Positions 2,371 to 43,743 of a stretch of DNA of 47,594 nt are shown here, one piece after another (position 1 is the first letter of the stretch; each line of letters starts with the position of its first letter). The translations under genes were made by a program, and so were the position numbers. Source of the DNA: Beijerinckiaceae bacterium (GTDB taxonomy: Bacteria > Pseudomonadota > Alphaproteobacteria > Rhizobiales > Beijerinckiaceae); the NCBI GenBank assembly GCA_024304885.1, contig JALJOM010000003.1:334516-382109 (forward strand), in the 5' to 3' direction. Under the pieces are notes generated by a model. It did no database searches. It was given only the letters and a program-made list of their open reading frames with translations, and had not been told where the DNA came from.

Positions 2371-2472
2371 AAGCGTTTTCCAGCGAGCGGGACATCGGCT
2401 CTCGACGCGAAAATGCGACAGAGCAAGGTAATGTCGAGCGGCTTCCGATGGGTTCGGTAGTCGGTCGAGGAC
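2371..2472 (+). repeat. Decayed mosaic repeat, module A, upstream of rpsL
   Basis: AGCGTTTTCCAGCGA, then GCGAAAATGCGACA, then GAGCGGCTTCCGAT line up in order and spacing with module A of the complete copy at 41881-41985, with many changes. It ends about 25 bases before rpsL and would lie in the rpsL leader. Confidence 0.6.
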
Positions 2473-14460: not shown

Positions 14461-14542
14461 GCGGCCGAAGCGATTTCCGGCGTGCCGCACCGCGGCTCGC
14501 GTCGCGAGACTGCGGCCAGGCTATCATGTAGGGTGCAATTCT

Positions 14543-15082
14543 ATGTCGCGCATCGGAAAGAAGCCGGTGGTCATCCCGGCCGGTGTCTCGGCCAAGGTCG
14601 AGGGCCAGCACGTTGCCGTGAAAGGCGCCAAGGGCGAGCTCGGCTTCACCGCGCCGGAGGAGGTGAGCCTCGCCTTCGCCGGCAACGAGATCGCAGTTGC
14701 GCCGCGTAACGAGACGAAGCGGGCGCGGGCGATGTGGGGCATGACACGTTCGATGGTCAACAACCTCGTGATCGGCGTCTCGAAGGGCTTCGAGCGGAAG
14801 CTCGAGATCACGGGGGTGGGCTACAAGGCCGCTGTTGCGGGCAAGAACCTGCAGCTCTCGCTCGGCTACAGCCACGACGTCAACTTTCCGATTCCCGACG
14901 GGATCGCGATCGCGACGCCGAAGCCGACCGAGGTCACGATCAGCGGGATCGACAAGCGCAAGGTCGGGCAGATCGCGTCGGAAATTCGCGCGCTCAGGCC
15001 GCCCGAGCCCTACAAGGGCAAGGGCGTGAAATATGCCGGCGAGTTCATCTTCCGCAAGGAAGGCAAGGGCACCAAGAAGTAG
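14543..15082 (+). CDS. rplF: 50S ribosomal protein L6 (uL6)
   Basis: L6 lies near the sarcin-ricin loop and the factor-binding site. The ATG at 14543 gives 179 residues starting [15 protein letters not shown], the family start, although the frame stays open further upstream. The C-terminal repeat contains [16 protein letters not shown]. The spacer after rpsH is 82 bases. Confidence 0.97.
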
Positions 15083-16885: not shown

Positions 16886-17339
16886 TCCTGCCGCCGATCG
16901 GTCGCGGAGGCCGGCCGGCGGGGAAGGTGCGCCTCTGCCGCACCAGGGCAAGGCTCCGTCGCAAGGAACTATATTGAGCTCGAACGTCGAAACGACATAA
17001 GATCGGAGCCGGTGCGGGGGAGCGCGTCGGTTCGGAGGTCGCGGTCGAAATGGGACGGCTCGTCCTCTTCCGGGCTCCGGAGGTTCGGGCGGGGCGCCGC
17101 CTGGTCCGGCGCGGCTAGCGCAATTTCCGCCGAACCGGATCGAGGTTCGCGTCGCGAAGTTGCGGCAGAACAGGACACAAGAGTCGCCATCGGGTTCTGC
17201 CCGATCGGCCGGCTCTCCGGGACGAGGTCCTCCGGCCGCGTGGCAATTGTCGAGCCGAAGCGATCACGGTCACGCCTTCGCGGCCGCGGCGTGTTTCGAG
17301 AACAAGGCAAAAGGTACGCGAGTACCACGGGAGCGATAG
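16886..17339 (+). other. Long spacer between rplO and secY
   Basis: 454 bases in a place that is usually short in spc operons. No credible open frame on either strand. It contains one mosaic repeat (17116-17186). Separate transcription of secY-adk from a promoter here is plausible, but I see no clear -35/-10 pair. Confidence 0.6.
17116..17186 (+). repeat. Mosaic repeat, partial module A, inside the ribosomal array
   Basis: AGCGCAATTTCCGCCGAA followed by TTCGCGTCGCGAAGTTGCGGCA matches the left two thirds of module A; the hairpin arms GAACCGGATCGAGGTTC are kept. The rightward GATCGGAAATCG half is missing. Confidence 0.7.
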
Positions 17340-19742: not shown

Positions 19743-20340
19743 GGGGTCTCGCTCGCATGATGCTTGGCGCATTTTCCAGCGGACCGGCGTCCGGTTCGCG
19801 TCGCGAAAATGCGATAAAACAAGTATTTAGAGCGACTTTCCGATTCGACTGGATCGGATAGTCGCTCGAGGATCCGGAACCATCGATTCCCGGTACTTCC
19901 GTTGGATCGCCGCATCCGCTTCTTCGCCTTTGCCGTGCGACTCGCGCTGCAAAGGCGGCGGATACCGGAGGCGCTCGGGGGCAACATTGCTGCACCCTGA
20001 CATCGACCATGGACAAGAAATATTGAGGCCGCGCTAGACTGTCCACAAGTTTTATAGGCTTTGCGAGAGCAATTCTTCTCGAACGACGTCGGACCGGGAA
20101 TTTTATCCCGCTTTCGGGGAGCGCGGCAGCATGGCGCTTCCGAGCCTTGGTGCATCACGAATCGTCGTCGCTGACCGATGAAGCGTAGGTCGGCGTCCGC
20201 GCGATCTGCCGCGTGCGCTTCCTCACCCCTCGTTCATCCGAATTCCGGCAGTGTCCTTTGCGAAACAGAGGTCGGAGACTCGACTTAAGCCTCGCGCAAC
20301 CTCCGTCTGCTAGAAATCGAGCGAGTTTCGGAGCAAGACC
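19743..20340. other. Intergenic region upstream of the Rrf2 and YbjQ-like genes
   Basis: About 600 bases between divergent genes. It holds one mosaic repeat (19767-19870) next to the Rrf2 start, where its promoter should lie. The remainder shows no gene I can support. TGCTAGAAAT near 20310, just upstream of the YbjQ-like gene, resembles an extended -10 element but has no clear -35 partner. Confidence 0.5.
19767..19870 (+). repeat. Mosaic repeat, module A
   Basis: GCGCATTTTCCAGCG, then CGTCGCGAAAATGCGATAAAA, then TAGAGCGACTTTCCGATTC and GATCGGATAGTCGCTCGAG follow the module A layout throughout. The inner hairpin keeps pairing although its sequence differs (GGACCGGCGTCCGG). It starts 25 bases upstream of the Rrf2 start codon. 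Confidence 0.8.
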
Positions 20341-20693: not shown

Positions 20694-20866
20694 GCGCGAT
20701 CTCTGGCGCACATGGTCGCCACACGATGCCGCGGGAACGGCATCGAGCATCGTCTGACCGCGCCAAATCATCCTTTGGCAGATGGCCAGGTCGAGCAAAC
20801 GAACCGGACCCTGACAGACATCAGGTCGAGCGCGACCCCTACAAGAGCCACGACCAGCTCCGCCAG
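20694..20866 (+). pseudogene. Remnant of an IS481-type DDE transposase (integrase core C-terminal part)
   Basis: One frame reads GNGIEHRLTAPNHPLADGQV followed by EQTNRTLTD, the end of the integrase core including the catalytic Glu of the DDE triad. Near 20819 the match shifts to another frame, which reads VERDPYKSHDQLRQ, the segment normally next in IS481 transposases (compare ...YHYDSHDQLR). The homology stops where a mosaic repeat begins at 20865. Nothing upstream encodes the rest and no terminal inverted repeats are visible, so this is a dead fragment. The surrounding 20629-21030 holds nothing else that I can support. Confidence 0.7.
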
Positions 20867-20969
20867 AGCAATTTCCAGCGAAGTGCATGCCGCTTCGCGT
20901 CGCGAAATTACGCCAATACAAGGGCGTAGAGCTGGTTGCCGATTCGACTGGATCGGAAGCCGATCTAGC
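20865..20969 (+). repeat. Mosaic repeat, module A, joined to the transposase remnant
   Basis: AGAGCAATTTCCAGCGAAG ... CTTCGCGTCGCGAAATTACG ... GTAGAGC ... CCGATTCGACTGGATCGGAA is a clear module A with all its parts in order. It begins at the point where transposase homology ends, and lies about 60 bases beyond the 3' end of the ugd gene. Confidence 0.85.
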
Positions 20970-22848: not shown

Positions 22849-23135
22849 CTGGAGCGGGACGAGGAAGAGTGGACACCGGCCTTCCGGCGCAATCGAGTTC
22901 ATGCGGATTGCGCAAGCTCAATTGCCTATTTCGCTCCAGAGCGGCTTCCGATCCCGCGGAAGCGGATACCGGCTCTACATTCTTGTTTTGTCGTAATTTC
23001 GCATCGGTGTCGATCGATCGAACCATCGAGATCGAAATGCGAACCGGTCTCGGCTTCTGTGGAAGTTGGTCGAGCGCTCTCGGTATCGATCACGATGACC
23101 TCGAATCGATTCGATCCGCGGTCATCGTGATCTAG
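22849..23135 (-). repeat. Mosaic repeat, C-A-B arrangement, inverted
   Basis: Reading the minus strand, B (CTAGATCACGATGACC) is followed by A and C. On the plus strand this shows as GGAGCGGGACGAGGAAGAG ... GGACACCGGCCTTCCGGCGC (C), then GAGCGGCTTCCGAT ... CTACATTCTTGTTTTGTCG ... ATGCGAA (A), then GGTCATCGTGATCTAG (B). The order of modules differs from the complete copy at 41881, which shows that modules move or recombine separately. Confidence 0.8.
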
Positions 23136-26087: not shown

Positions 26088-26552
26088 ATGCTGCTGGCAA
26101 ACTTGATCACGCCCGAGGCGATCATCCCGTCGCTCAAGGTGAATACGAAGAAGCACGCCTTGCTGGAGCTGAGCGATCGGGCGGCCGCCGTTTCCGGGCT
26201 CGAGTCGCGAGAAGTCTACGACGCGCTCCTCCAGCGCGAACGGCTCGGCTCCACCGGGATCGGGCACGGGATCGCCATTCCCCACGGCAAGCTCGCCAAG
26301 GCCAAGTCGATCTTCGGAATTTGTGCAAGGCTCGTGCGCCCGATCGACTTCGAGTCGCTCGACGGCGCACCGGTCGACCTCATTTGCGTCCTGATCGCTC
26401 CGGAATCGGCCGGCGCGGACCATCTCAAGGCTCTCGCACGCTTGGCTCGCATCCTTCGGGATCCGAGCATAGGGGTGAAGCTTCGGGCCGCGCGCGACGT
26501 CAGCGCACTTTACGCCGTCTTGACCGAGGAAGCGGCCCCCCACGCCGCGTAG
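26088..26552 (+). CDS. ptsN: PTS EIIA-type regulatory protein PtsN (EIIA-Ntr)
   Basis: The terminal phosphoryl acceptor of the nitrogen PTS (PtsP-PtsO-PtsN), which modulates potassium and nitrogen responses. The ATG at 26088 gives 154 residues beginning MLLANLITPEAIIPSLKV. The active-site His is in GIGHGIAIPHGK, in the standard context. The frame is open further upstream, but the family start supports 26088; no strong ribosome site is seen. The stop codon TAG at 26550 is the first three bases of a mosaic repeat. Confidence 0.95.
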   Translation: MLLANLITPEAIIPSLKVNTKKHALLELSDRAAAVSGLESREVYDALLQRERLGSTGIGHGIAIPHGKLAKAKSIFGICARLVRPIDFESLDGAPVDLICVLIAPESAGADHLKALARLARILRDPSIGVKLRAARDVSALYAVLTEEAAPHAA

Positions 26553-26702
26553 ATCACGATGCATTTGGATCGAACCGATCCAAATTCATGAATGTGATCG
26601 ATGCTAAAGACTTAGCGCGGGATAAGCAGACGAGTTTACGCAATCTGCGTAAACTCGATGGCGCCGGAAAACCGGTATCCACTTTTCCTCCTCCCGCGCT
26701 AG
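26550..26702 (+). repeat. Mosaic repeat, modules B and C, starting at the ptsN stop codon
   Basis: TAGATCACGATG, then TTGGATCGAACCGATCCAAA (B), then TAGCGCGGGATAAGCAG ... GTTTACGCAATCTGCGTAAAC ... CTCCTCCCGCGCTAG (C). It is nearly the same as 41982-42136. The remaining 26553-26991 gap holds a second copy and nothing else recognisable. Confidence 0.85.
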
Positions 26703-26810: not shown

Positions 26811-26914
26811 AGCGCGATTTCGAGCGAAGTGGCTACCACTTCGCGTCGCGAAAATGCGATGATGCAAGAATGTTGAGCCGGTTTCCGATTCCGCCGGATC
26901 GGAAGCCGCTCGAG
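26811..26914 (+). repeat. Mosaic repeat, module A
   Basis: AGCGCGATTTCGAGCGAAGT, hairpin AAGTGGCTACCACTT, GTCGCGAAAATGCGATGATG, and GTTTCCGATTCCGCCGGATC then GGAAGCCGCTCGAG: a full-length module A with small changes, about 75 bases before cysQ. Confidence 0.8.
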
Positions 26915-27882: not shown

Positions 27883-27996
27883 GGATCACGATGAGCTCGG
27901 ATCGAATCGAGCCGAATTCATGAACGTGATCGATTCCCGAAGTTTAGAGCGGGACGCGGGCGGAAAACCGATGTCCATTTTTCTCGCCCCCCTCTG
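27883..27996 (+). repeat. Mosaic repeat, module B with shortened module C
   Basis: GGATCACGATGAGCTCGGATC and its partner GAGCCGAATTCATGAACGTG (B), then TTTAGAGCGGGA running into GGCGGAAAACCGATGTCC. The hairpin TTTACGCAATCTGCGTAAA of module C is deleted. It ends about 23 bases before the eipA start. Confidence 0.75.
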
Positions 27997-28780: not shown

Positions 28781-28831
28781 GCATTTTTCCACGAACCGAC
28801 AGGCGGTTCGATTCGCTGGAAATTGCTCTAG
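28781..28831 (-). repeat. Mosaic repeat, partial module A, inverted
   Basis: ATTCGCTGGAAATTGCTCTAG is the reverse complement of the module A left end, and CGAACCG/CGGTTCG arms form the inner hairpin. The other half of the module is missing. It lies 33 bases before cobT. Confidence 0.75.
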
Positions 28832-28863
28832 GAACGTCTATCCGAACCCGATCGCGCTCGCCC

Positions 28864-29901: not shown

Positions 29902-30982
29902 AGGAATAGGCCGAGGCGCGGCGCGAGCGCGTGCGGAAAAATTCTGCGCGGCCTATGGGCTCGAGATCCCGATCCTGCTCGCGCCGATGGCGGGCGCGTC
30001 CCCACCCGCGCTTTCGATCGCGATCGCCGCTGCGGGCGGGATGGGGGCGCTCGGCGCGCTGCTCACCGACCCCATCGGGATCGCCGCCTGGGCGAACACC
30101 TTCCGGGCCGGGAGCCCTGGGCCGTTCCAGCTCAATCTCTGGGTTCCCGGCGCGGCCCCGGCGCGCGACCCCGCCGCCGAGGAAAAGCTGCGGAGCTTCC
30201 TCGGGCACTGGGGCCCCGCTGTTCCACCGGAGGCGGGCGATGCCCGACCGCTCGATTTCGACGCCCAATGTGCCGCCTTCCTCGAGGCTCGACCGACGGC
30301 GGTCTCCTCGATCATGGGTCTCTTCCCGCCCGCCTATGTCGCAGAGCTGAAGGCGCGCGGCATCGCCTGGTTCGCATGCGCGACGACGGTCCGGGACGCC
30401 TTGCGCGCCGAGGAGGCCGGCGCCGATGCCGTCGTCGCCCAGGGCATGGAGGCGGGCGGCCATCGCGGCGCCTTCGATCCGCAAAGTGCCGAGCGGGAAA
30501 CAGTCGGGCTCTTCGCGCTTCTGCCGAGGCTCGCCGACAGGCTCGGCGTCCCGATCATCGCGGCAGGCGGGATCGGGGACGGACGCGGGATCGCGGCAGC
30601 CTTGACGCTCGGTGCCTCGGCCGTCCAGATCGGCACCGCCTTCCTGCGGTGCCCGGAGGCTGGCATAAATCCGGCTTGGGCCAATGCCTTGGCCGGGCTC
30701 GAGCCGGAGGGGACCGTCTTGACCCGCGCCTACAGCGGCCGGACTGGACGCGCCGTCAGGACCGCCTATGTGCAAGCCGCAGGCGCTTCCGACTCGCCGC
30801 CCCCGGCCCCTTACCCCGTGCAAAGCGGTCTCACCCGCGCCATGCGCGAGGCGGCTCTGCGAGCAGGTGACATCGACCGAATGCAGGCCTGGGCCGGACA
30901 ATCCGCCGCGCTCGCCCGCGCCGAGCCGGCCGAGGATCTCGCACGGCGCATCTGGGAGGAAGCCTCCGCGCTGCTTCCGTGA
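29894..30982 (+). CDS. Nitronate monooxygenase-like FMN protein (NMO/2-nitropropane dioxygenase family)
   Basis: A 362-residue TIM-barrel flavoprotein; family members oxidise nitronates, and relatives act as enoyl-ACP reductases (FabK). [20 protein letters not shown] at the N-terminus, GMEAGGHRG (with the presumed catalytic His) and [14 protein letters not shown] plus [11 protein letters not shown] (phosphate of FMN) are visible. The ATG at 29894 lies inside the end of cobT, so the two genes are coupled, but no metabolic link is evident. Substrate unknown. Confidence 0.9.
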
Positions 30983-38585: not shown

Positions 38586-38996
38586 CTTCGCTACCTTCGT
38601 CCAGTGACATTAGAGCGGTTTCCGATCCGGCCGGACTGAAAACCAGCTCTACATTGTTGTTTCGCATCGATGCCGATCTATCGAAACATCGAGATCGAGA
38701 CGCGAAGTGGTATCCACTTCGCTGGAAAATGCTCTCGCCGCGACGCTCGCTGCGCGAGCGCTCGACGACTGAGAAATCCTTTCGGCTCTCGCGCGTTCCC
38801 GGACCGAGAGGAGTTCGCGGCCCGTCGATCGCCATCCGGGTTGCTCGTGGCGACCCGAGCGCCGAGGCACGGCTCGCCTCGAGCTTCCCGGATAGCCGAA
38901 CCTTAGTAGAAAATAAGAAGAAGGATCCGCCCTGCGCGAGGCTGATCTTCTGTCTGCACCGAATTTTTCCGCCCGTGGCCCTGCAGCAACAGAGGC
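38586..38996. other. Intergenic region between the LD-transpeptidase and NtrC-type regulator genes
   Basis: 411 bases. An inverted module A fills 38611-38736. The rest, including a short AT-rich patch around 38903-38925, has no supportable gene. It should hold the transpeptidase promoter on the minus strand. Confidence 0.5.
38611..38736 (-). repeat. Mosaic repeat, module A, inverted
   Basis: TAGAGCGGTTTCCGATCCGG, then CTCTACATTGTTGTTTCGCA, then the hairpin CGAAGTGGTATCCACTTCG and CTGGAAAATGCTCTC: a complete module A on the minus strand, with a short insertion around the two ATCGA repeats. Confidence 0.85.
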
Positions 38997-41880: not shown

Positions 41881-42136
41881 TAGAGCAATTTCCAGCGAAG
41901 TGGTATCCACTTCGCGTCGTGAAATTGCGATAAAACAAGGATGTAGAGCGGCCTACCGATTCCGCGCGATCGGAAATCGCTCTAGATCACGATGACCTTG
42001 GATCGAAACGATCCAAGGTCATGAAACGTGATCGATTTTAAGAGTTTAGAGCGGGATAGGCAGATGAGTTTACGCAATCTGCGTAAACGCGATTGCGCCG
42101 GAAAACCGGTGTCCGCTTTTCCTCATCCCGCTCTAG
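41881..42136 (+). repeat. Complete mosaic repeat (modules A, B and C), best-preserved copy
   Basis: A (41881-41985): TAGAGCAATTTCC at one end and GGAAATCGCTCTAG at the other, with inner hairpin GAAGTGGTATCCACTTC. B (41982-42043): GATCACGATGACC, the arms TTGGATCG/CGATCCAA, then GGTCATGAAACGTGATC. C (42047-42136): TAGAGCGGGAT and ATCCCGCTCTAG as terminal inverted repeats, inner hairpin GTTTACGCAATCTGCGTAAAC. The final CTAG contains the ybbA-like gene stop codon. With it, 41688-42132 is accounted for apart from the putative promoter of the monooxygenase. Confidence 0.9.
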
Positions 42137-42837
42137 GCCGAGACGGCGGAAAGATGCGGCTCGTGCTCGTCGTCGATCCGCCCGGATCGGAGCCGAATGC
42201 GCCGCTCGCAGCGTGCCGCCAGCGCGAGATCGTGGGTCACGAGAATGAGGGTCGCGCCGCGATCGCGCTTCAGCGCGAGCATGAGATCCACGATGGTCTT
42301 GCCGGTCGCCTCGTCGAGGTTGCCGGTCGGCTCGTCGGCGACGAGGATCGACGGGCGCGGCACGAGCGCGCGGGCGAGGGCGACGCGCTGCTGCTCGCCG
42401 CCGGAGAGCTGGGACGGATAATGCGCGCGGCGATCCGCGAGCCCGACGGCGTCGAGCTCGCGCTCGGCGCGCGCGAACGCGTCCCGCTCGCCCCCGAGCT
42501 CGAGCGGGATCGCGACATTCTCGAGCGCGGTCATGGTCGGGATGAGATGGAAGGACTGGAACACGATGCCGATCCGCGCGCCGCGAAATCGCGCGAGCTC
42601 GTCCTCGTCGAGCCGATCGAGCGCGGTGCCGTCGACCTTGACTGTCCCGGCGTCGGGGCGCTCGAGCCCGGCGATGATCATGAGGAGGGTGGATTTGCCG
42701 GACCCCGACGGGCCGACCAGGCCGACGGTCTCACCGCGCTCTATATTGAAGGTCACGCCCTTCAGGACATGAACGAGCGCGGCGCCGCGCCCCAGGCTGA
42801 GGTGCACATTGTCTAGCTCGACCACGGAGGAGTTCAT
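42133..42837 (-). CDS. ABC transporter ATP-binding protein, YbbA/LolD-like
   Basis: A 234-residue ATPase with Walker A GPSGSGKST, Q-loop region VFQSFHLIPTMTALEN, signature LSGGEQQRVALARAL, Walker B ILVADEPTGNLD and switch His in ILVTHD. It belongs to the MacB/LolD/YbbA group, which energise FtsX-like permeases for lipoprotein or envelope-related tasks. Its usual partner permease (YbbP-like) is missing downstream, where a mosaic repeat supplies the TAG stop. It is divergent from the tesA-like gene with 2 bases between the start codons, the arrangement known for ybbA/tesA. Confidence 0.92.
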   Translation of the reverse strand: MNSSVVELDNVHLSLGRGAALVHVLKGVTFNIERGETVGLVGPSGSGKSTLLMIIAGLERPDAGTVKVDGTALDRLDEDELARFRGARIGIVFQSFHLIPTMTALENVAIPLELGGERDAFARAERELDAVGLADRRAHYPSQLSGGEQQRVALARALVPRPSILVADEPTGNLDEATGKTIVDLMLALKRDRGATLILVTHDLALAARCERRIRLRSGRIDDEHEPHLSAVSA

Positions 42838-43667: not shown

Positions 43668-43743
43668 TGGTGGGCCGGGAGGGACTCGAACCCCCAACCA
43701 GACCGTTATGAGCGGCCGGCTCTAACCATTGAGCTACCGGCCC
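43668..43743 (-). tRNA. tRNA with CAU anticodon, probably tRNA-Ile2
   Basis: On the minus strand a full cloverleaf folds: acceptor GGGCCGG/CCGGCCC, D arm GCTC/GAGC, anticodon loop CTCATAA, T arm GGGGG-TTCGAGT-CCCTC, and encoded CCA. The anticodon CAT could mean Met or lysidine-modified Ile2. The body (TAGCTCAATGGTTAGAGC) resembles the E. coli ileX tRNA more than elongator Met tRNA, so I favour Ile2, the substrate of TilS. It lies opposite to its flanking genes. Confidence 0.93.

Follow-up and report, generated by a model that had tools for sequence, protein, structure and literature searches.

Two palindromic repeats of a Beijerinckiaceae bacterium insert as whole units in related bacteria and are probably IS630-type MITEs

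Results

We analyzed a 47,594-nucleotide stretch of Beijerinckiaceae DNA (the window), in which positions 41881-42136 hold two palindromic elements, A and BC, side by side with one TA in common (Table 1). The segment reads C-TA-[A, 41883-41982]-TA-[BC, 41985-42133]-TA-G. A ends in GAGCAATTTCC...GGAAATCGCTC and carries GATTC, a GANTC site, in its second arm. BC consists of the B hairpin, a spacer and the C palindrome, and its ends are GATCACGATGA / TCATCCCGCTC; the left TA of C (42047-42048) is internal to BC. All three arms fold far better than shuffled sequences (z -4.6 for A; B and C in Table 1). At the right end, positions 42133-42135 double as the TAG stop codon of a neighboring minus-strand ABC ATPase frame. 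We set the boundaries by analogy with empty sites in relatives, one in Bradyrhizobium for A and those on S. meliloti pSymB for BC. An earlier, sequence-only reading had divided the segment into three modules, A, B and C; the sequence is as it described and the repeats are real, but the boundaries differ, A spanning 100 bp and B and C together forming one unit of 149 bp.

Table 1. Repeat elements and associated features of the window
Feature	Position	Strand	Basis
Element A, short form, 100 bp between TAs	41883..41982	+	window sequence and profile
Element BC, long form, 149 bp between TAs	41985..42133	+	window sequence and profile
B arm of BC, near-perfect hairpin	41985..42038	+	profile; fold z -8.2
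C arm of BC, palindrome	42049..42133	+	profile; fold z -5.7
TA, left end of A, within CTAG	41881..41882	.	window sequence
TA common to A and BC	41983..41984	.	window sequence, junction count
TA, right end of BC, within CTAG	42134..42135	.	window sequence
ABC transporter ATPase frame, stop codon at BC end	42133..42837	-	PF00005, E 5.9e-39
A copy	2372..2466	+	profile, 54 bits
A copy, degenerate	14469..14559	+	profile, 37 bits
A copy	17117..17217	+	profile, 52 bits
A copy	19767..19867	+	profile, 85 bits
A copy	20865..20967	+	profile, 87 bits
BC (B 23082-23132, C 22849-22936) with an A copy (22938-23068) between its arms	22849..23132	-	profile
BC, long form	26552..26702	+	profile
A copy	26811..26911	+	profile, 91 bits
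BC, short form	27884..27995	+	profile
Half A copy, weak, one hairpin, either strand	28781..28833	.	17 bits
A copy, long form	38611..38735	-	profile

Iterated profile searches located 11 clusters in the window, with nine A, four B and four C matches on both strands, bearing out the earlier description of dispersed copies in both orientations. Two A copies (14469-14559 and 17117-17217) lie in what, judging by gene order, we take to be a ribosomal-protein gene cluster, and one of them may extend to the start of the next gene. At the gathering threshold, the sole Rfam match in the window was a tRNA (43671-43743), and the repeats matched no RNA family.

For genome-scale counts we used a sample of 447,594 bases of the 3.82-Mb host genome, comprising the window and 20 stretches of 20 kb. 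Several stretches were picked for first-look hits. The sample contains 66 A, 41 B and 38 C matches in 83 clusters, and eight round-number stretches (160 kb) contain 11 A, 3 B and 3 C; none of the three profiles matched an order-2 Markov sequence of the same length at E<=1e-4. A genome-wide first look with the full 258-base query returned 422 candidates, 40 of which were scored, well beyond the few unrelated palindromes that would have spoken against the earlier reading. A occurs in size classes of ~100 and ~134 bp, and BC in classes of ~150 bp (149 here) and ~113 bp. At 100 and 149 bp, A and BC are too short to accommodate a transposase gene. In an alignment of 10 copies, the long form of A (such as 38611-38735 in the window) stems from a ~34-bp insert in the first arm.

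We compared filled and empty sites in relatives. At pSymB site 402118, BC is present in S. meliloti 1021 and SM11, and the site is empty in four other S. meliloti (Rm41, AK57, LMB1 and RU11), in K101 and in S. medicae ml49, making it polymorphic within S. meliloti. Among the 60 of 84 matching records that were listed, at least 19 S. meliloti records have full coverage and some others match over a length shorter by about 113 bases or more; eight of the listed records were aligned. The empty site reads AACCTTAGAGTAA in all six of the empty strains named, and the filled site of 1021 and SM11 reads AACCT-TA-[GAGCGGG...GTGATC]-TA-GAGTAA, an insert of 113 bases plus TA. Because the outgroups K101 and S. 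medicae are empty, the comparison points to insertion. A second site, 30045, carries BC in 1021 but not in S. kummerowiae or M103, the empty sequence GCCCTAAGACC (S. kummerowiae) becoming GCCCTA-[...]-TAAGACC. BC is flanked by TTAG on the left and CTAG on the right at 402118, and by CTAG on the left and CTAA on the right at 30045. As the first site excludes C from the duplication and the second excludes G, the BC duplication is TA.

A likewise inserts as one unit. Bradyrhizobium plasmids 26S5, 28S5 and 2S1 are empty at a site reading GCGCCTAGCAA, in CTAG, where 41S5 and 38S5 carry an A of 101 bases with a perfect 13-nt inverted end, TAGAGCATTTTCG. This single empty site is compatible with duplication of TA or of the four bases CTAG. 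Among the A units of our sample with both ends intact, 3 of 7 have ATA or GTA on the left and TAG on the right, and a left base other than C favors TA. Thus, A and BC each insert as a whole unit at TA in relatives, with TA duplication firmly established for BC at two sites and one site, allowing TA or CTAG, for A. The sequence-only reading had looked to presence and absence of modules between close relatives: exact sites exist in S. meliloti and Bradyrhizobium and involve whole units, whereas the host genus yielded no empty site at the one locus tried (L263), whose flanks had no ortholog in 39 other genomes. In the 2S1 record (L390), three extra bases (CAA) lie beside the empty A site relative to the other two empty records; either slippage or a footprint could account for them.

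We turned to candidate sources of a transposase. DDE_3 (IS630) matches are present in 15 of 15 genus genomes, and sequence comparison indicates that the ends and target of A and BC are similar to those of IS630 elements. The BC-rich genome G011 has a single DDE_3 match, L233, which lies between TAGAGCGGGATGATTTTAG and TAGAGCGGGATGAGATTTG at a CTAG target. TAGAGCGGGATGA occurs at both ends of L233 and also at the right end of the window BC and of the S. meliloti copies; the identity to the window BC covers 13 nt, and many other BC copies are one base off within these 13 (TCGTC for TCATC; by eye). G011 also holds a partial relative of L233 at C1:1391480-1391941. In genome G001, eight IS630 copies measure 1,052 bp between TAs, end in GAGCAGTATCC and GAGCAATAGCC, and have the targets CTA..TAG (7 of 8) and CTA..TAA (1 of 8). 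A-like ends were found on L239 and on the truncated L270, which starts TAGAGCGTTTTCC. Over 20 nt, as many as 15 positions of TAGAGC-type IS630 ends agree with BC or A ends, and three IS630 ends of other types agree with A or BC at 8 at most. These scores do not cleanly separate A-type from BC-type ends, one L233 end also matching the right end of A at 14 of 20 positions.

In both the L233 and the G001 transposase, the catalytic half passes NF033545 (the NCBIfam IS630 cut-off) and PF13358, and the N-terminal half matches the NCBIfam IS630 model below cut-off. Relatives of the L233 transposase occur in 793 plasmid records, including 176 from Rhizobium and 162 from Sinorhizobium. Seven were inspected: five (L380, L381, L383-L385) have paired TAGAG-type ends, L382 yielded none, and L386 only an unpaired left end. 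From the ends and the target, we infer that an IS630-group transposase may mobilize A and BC in trans.

Several observations count against an IS630-type MITE. The left and right ends of BC agree at 11 of 14 nt, including CTAG (consensus, by eye), which is poor for a terminal inverted repeat, and BC is no simple internal deletion of any IS630 that we saw. At L263:1622-2754 in the host genome, a decayed IS630 occupies the place of C, immediately after an intact B arm and BC spacer; from the junction onward it is 77% identical to the G001 IS. We cannot fully account for this layout: an IS may have taken over the position of C, or a larger relative may have left a remnant. A candidate helper for BC is present in the same genome in G011, and in the host genome we found a decayed one only: none of its four DDE_3 matches is an intact IS630 with matching ends, two being pieces of L263, one having other ends and one lying near a contig end without recognisable ends.

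CTAG is scarce in the sample (233 observed vs 1,429 predicted by base composition), and 83 of these sites lie in or at elements. The left TA of BC follows a C in 31 of 34 recognisable ends (5 more were unrecognisable), and the right TA is followed by G in 23 of 23 (14 more were not intact). For A, C precedes the left TA in 13 of 22 and G follows the right TA in 13 of 16 (34 and 35 ends were unrecognisable). IS630 itself prefers CTAG.

Other families also use TA or CTAG targets, IS5 members with YTAR targets among them, and one of these could have moved A and BC in place of IS630. The single A empty site would accommodate a four-base CTAG duplication, and palindromic repeats are known as IS targets, according to the accessible portion of one source (PMC1525189). 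In a plasmid of Methylovirgula sp. HY1 (L336:1502-2560), an IS5-family IS lies exactly at the right end of a full short BC, with CTAA on both sides. Here the element end served as an insertion site, and we rejected this IS as the parent of BC, an IS5 having inserted beside it. Its ends are GAGCCCGAC, whereas the 13-base end match of BC is to IS630, and the two BC empty sites together permit only TA. We therefore regard a mover from another family as unlikely.

Where neighboring elements meet, 16 of 26 junctions have one TA in common and in 5 that TA is mutated (by eye); the 5 of 26 that do not fit the one-TA pattern count against it. Element ends also coincide with stop codons. Among 81 ends with TAG that abut no other element, the TAG is in frame with an open frame in 25, vs 12 and 6 for the other two frames, a count that uses open frames of 200 or more codons and not gene calls. 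This association of element ends with stop codons is suggestive.

Among the matches in the sample, 39 of 41 B and 39 of 66 A contain GANTC, and none of 38 C does; 0.15 and 0.29 per copy are expected for B and A, respectively. By pattern, the arm center is its position in 27 B and 21 A matches; the window's own B reads GAAAC there. An odd-centered inverted repeat such as GATCGANTCGATC yields GANTC by itself, so a conserved site is not proof of methylation. Both the window A and the short BC of Methylovirgula fold into two arms with a linker. A Bradyrhizobium A (L379) differs from the two-armed A of the window: as single-stranded DNA, it folds end to end by pairing of the 13-nt inverted ends.

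Strong folding, the excess of GANTC in B and A, and the ends at stop codons would each suit conserved regulatory elements held by selection (terminators, mRNA stabilisers or CcrM landing sites) and not mobile DNA. Such elements would not be expected to come and go between strains and species with clean TA boundaries, as A and BC do. Furthermore, regions of 40-60 kb from each of seven genus mates, which carry the same ribosomal genes and have ~16-18 kb in common with the window, hold one A and no BC in all by these profiles. A purely regulatory origin is in our view distinctly improbable, and a regulatory role is not exclusive of mobility.

The sequence-only reading favored a single mosaic of three modules that shuffle separately; such a mosaic would resemble pneumococcal BOX. 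A, B and C do stand together at 41881-42136, several orders exist, and on S. meliloti pSymB some short matches cover nothing but the C end. In our sample, however, C was never seen without B: all 38 C matches share a cluster with B, of which 36 are adjacent and co-oriented, 1 has an A between and 1 is opposite and partial. Of the 41 B matches, 3 stand by themselves, and A is alone in 40 of 83 clusters. The left end of C, which had been called perfect, is internal, and its TA is TA in 12 of 27 full BC copies and CA in 15 of 27; of these 27 copies, 23 preserve the outer left TA of BC and 19 the outer right CTCTA. What had been taken for an inverted C-A-B order (22849-23132) is really an A lodged between the B and C of one BC, and most other orders fit insertion of one element beside or into another at TA.

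A and BC also multiply independently between species. We searched 15 genus genomes for both, scoring at most 40 candidates per genome. G011 has at least 77 BC vs at least 3 A matches, G005 at least 41 A vs at least 12 weak BC matches (the best BC only 3.8e-9), and G007 at least 40 A and at least 33 BC; neither element was found among the up to 40 candidates scored in each of G003, G009, G013 and G014. Across 199 genomes of the order, with four candidates per genome scored, full-length BC was seen in the host genome only, and six others had partial BC matches at E<=1e-8. A scan for contigs with the ABC ATPase returned distant loci only, and in the profile searches its 80 loci hold one weak half A. 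On pSymB of S. meliloti 1021, a search at E<=1e-8 gave 33 full or partial BC matches, some of which cover the C end only. Hence, the mobile units are two, A and BC, instead of three modules. We rejected three-module shuffling, a highly improbable reading, on the sample clusters, the independent amplification in the genus and the insertion of BC as one unit in S. meliloti; with A also entering its empty site as one unit, the separate occurrence and movement of modules that characterize a BOX-like mosaic were not found.

REP/BIME-type elements moved by a RAYT (Y1) transposase are hardly credible here: the repeats are palindromic and of high copy number, A contains GTAG words, and G007, rich in both A and BC, has a Y1 match (PF01797 gives one match each in 3 of 15 genus genomes), but neither the BC-rich G011 nor the host genome (G000), for which we rejected this origin, has a PF01797 match, and TA duplication at the BC empty sites does not, to our knowledge, fit Y1 transposition.

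Discussion

We consider it probable that A and BC are two separate non-autonomous IS630-type MITEs that landed next to each other. The IS630 group belongs to the Tc1/mariner superfamily. Each element is bounded by two TA dinucleotides, and its ends start with GA(G/T)C. In this reading, both ends would be bound by a transposase provided in trans, one of the IS630 group with TAGAGC ends. The enzyme would cut out the unit or copy it and place it at a TA, most readily within a CTAG-like site, and the TA would be duplicated. The ends of existing copies would then carry CTAG again, so that new copies would often land beside or inside old ones and produce the apparent mosaics. An insertion whose target TA belongs to a TAG stop codon should be harmless, since TAG would be supplied anew by the element end. 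The biochemistry of these steps, the harmlessness at stop codons and whatever the hairpins may do are inferred.

In the host genome, A copies have a mean pairwise identity of 0.78 (28 copies), and long BC units one of 0.89, with a best pair of 0.97 (n=27). Given such divergence and no intact matching IS630, the earlier suggestion of an active or recently active element finds no support there as far as current activity is concerned. Recent movement in S. meliloti and Bradyrhizobium is supported. The genome-wide copies and the sites in relatives agree with the other part of the earlier proposal, that the repeats are dispersed, non-autonomous, MITE-like and akin in kind to rhizobial repeats.

Catalogues of palindromic repeats between genes in rhizobia and other alphaproteobacteria go back to the 1990s. 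CcrM-associated intergenic repeats (CIRs), found in Caulobacter, Brucella and other alphaproteobacteria, are described in the available part of a 2007 review as ~110 bp long, with two inverted-repeat arms and a linker, GANTC in or near one loop and TA at the termini; more information on the mechanism of CIR mobility was stated there to be required (PMC2229807). Compared by that partial description alone, A and BC are alike in size, in having two arms and a linker, in terminal TA and GANTC, and in their alphaproteobacterial host. They differ in that unit insertion at TA and IS630-like ends were observed here, whereas CIR mobility is left open in that portion of the review. The CIR sequences reportedly come from Chen and Shapiro 2003.

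In S. meliloti, RIMEs, Sm-repeats and 'AB, C' palindromes have been named, such rhizobial repeats being of unknown function in the text available to us (PMC2573895), and palindromes are catalogued in the accessible sections of two papers (PMC2573895, PMC2873474). The short form of BC is repeated on S. meliloti 1021 pSymB, with 33 full or partial matches, and is probably among the annotated palindromes of this species; the letters of 'AB, C' need not correspond to our A, B and C.

RUP of Streptococcus pneumoniae is given, in the portions available of two sources, as ~107 bp, with IS630-Spn1-like ends, TA targets and about a hundred copies (PMC3049150, PMC2229807). On these excerpts, RUP has the mode of life that we propose for A and BC, but it is one simple, AT-rich repeat, whereas A and BC are two-armed. 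Bru-RS1/2 of Brucella measure 103-105 bp in the available text (PMC2267715). By this partial description alone, A and BC are like them in size and palindromic nature. Bru-RS is said to be palindromic in the title of Halling and Bricker 1994. IS630-family IS with TAGAG ends in Hyphomicrobiales share the ends and the TA/CTAG target of A and BC, but are ~1,050 bp long and carry a transposase gene. In the literature searched, which left out most subscription journals, we found no paper tying these repeats to IS630.

A broader reading would place A and BC in one alphaproteobacteria-wide superfamily of IS630-driven two-armed MITEs that would also account for CIRs, rhizobial palindromes and Bru-RS, with GANTC at the arm tip tying transposition to CcrM methylation and most movement taking place behind the replication fork. 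Some other transposons are timed in this way by Dam sites. We hold this extension to be speculative and rather unlikely. The narrower reading of A and BC as two IS630-type MITEs suggests how a puzzling group of palindromic repeats spreads and could explain, with no function invoked, both the mosaics and the element ends at stop codons. The mechanism becomes directly testable, given named strains with exact empty sites, the duplicated TA, the preference for CTAG and a group of candidate transposases.

Elsewhere in the window, positions 1-270 contain two 123-nt direct copies that are 85% alike and start 147 bases apart.
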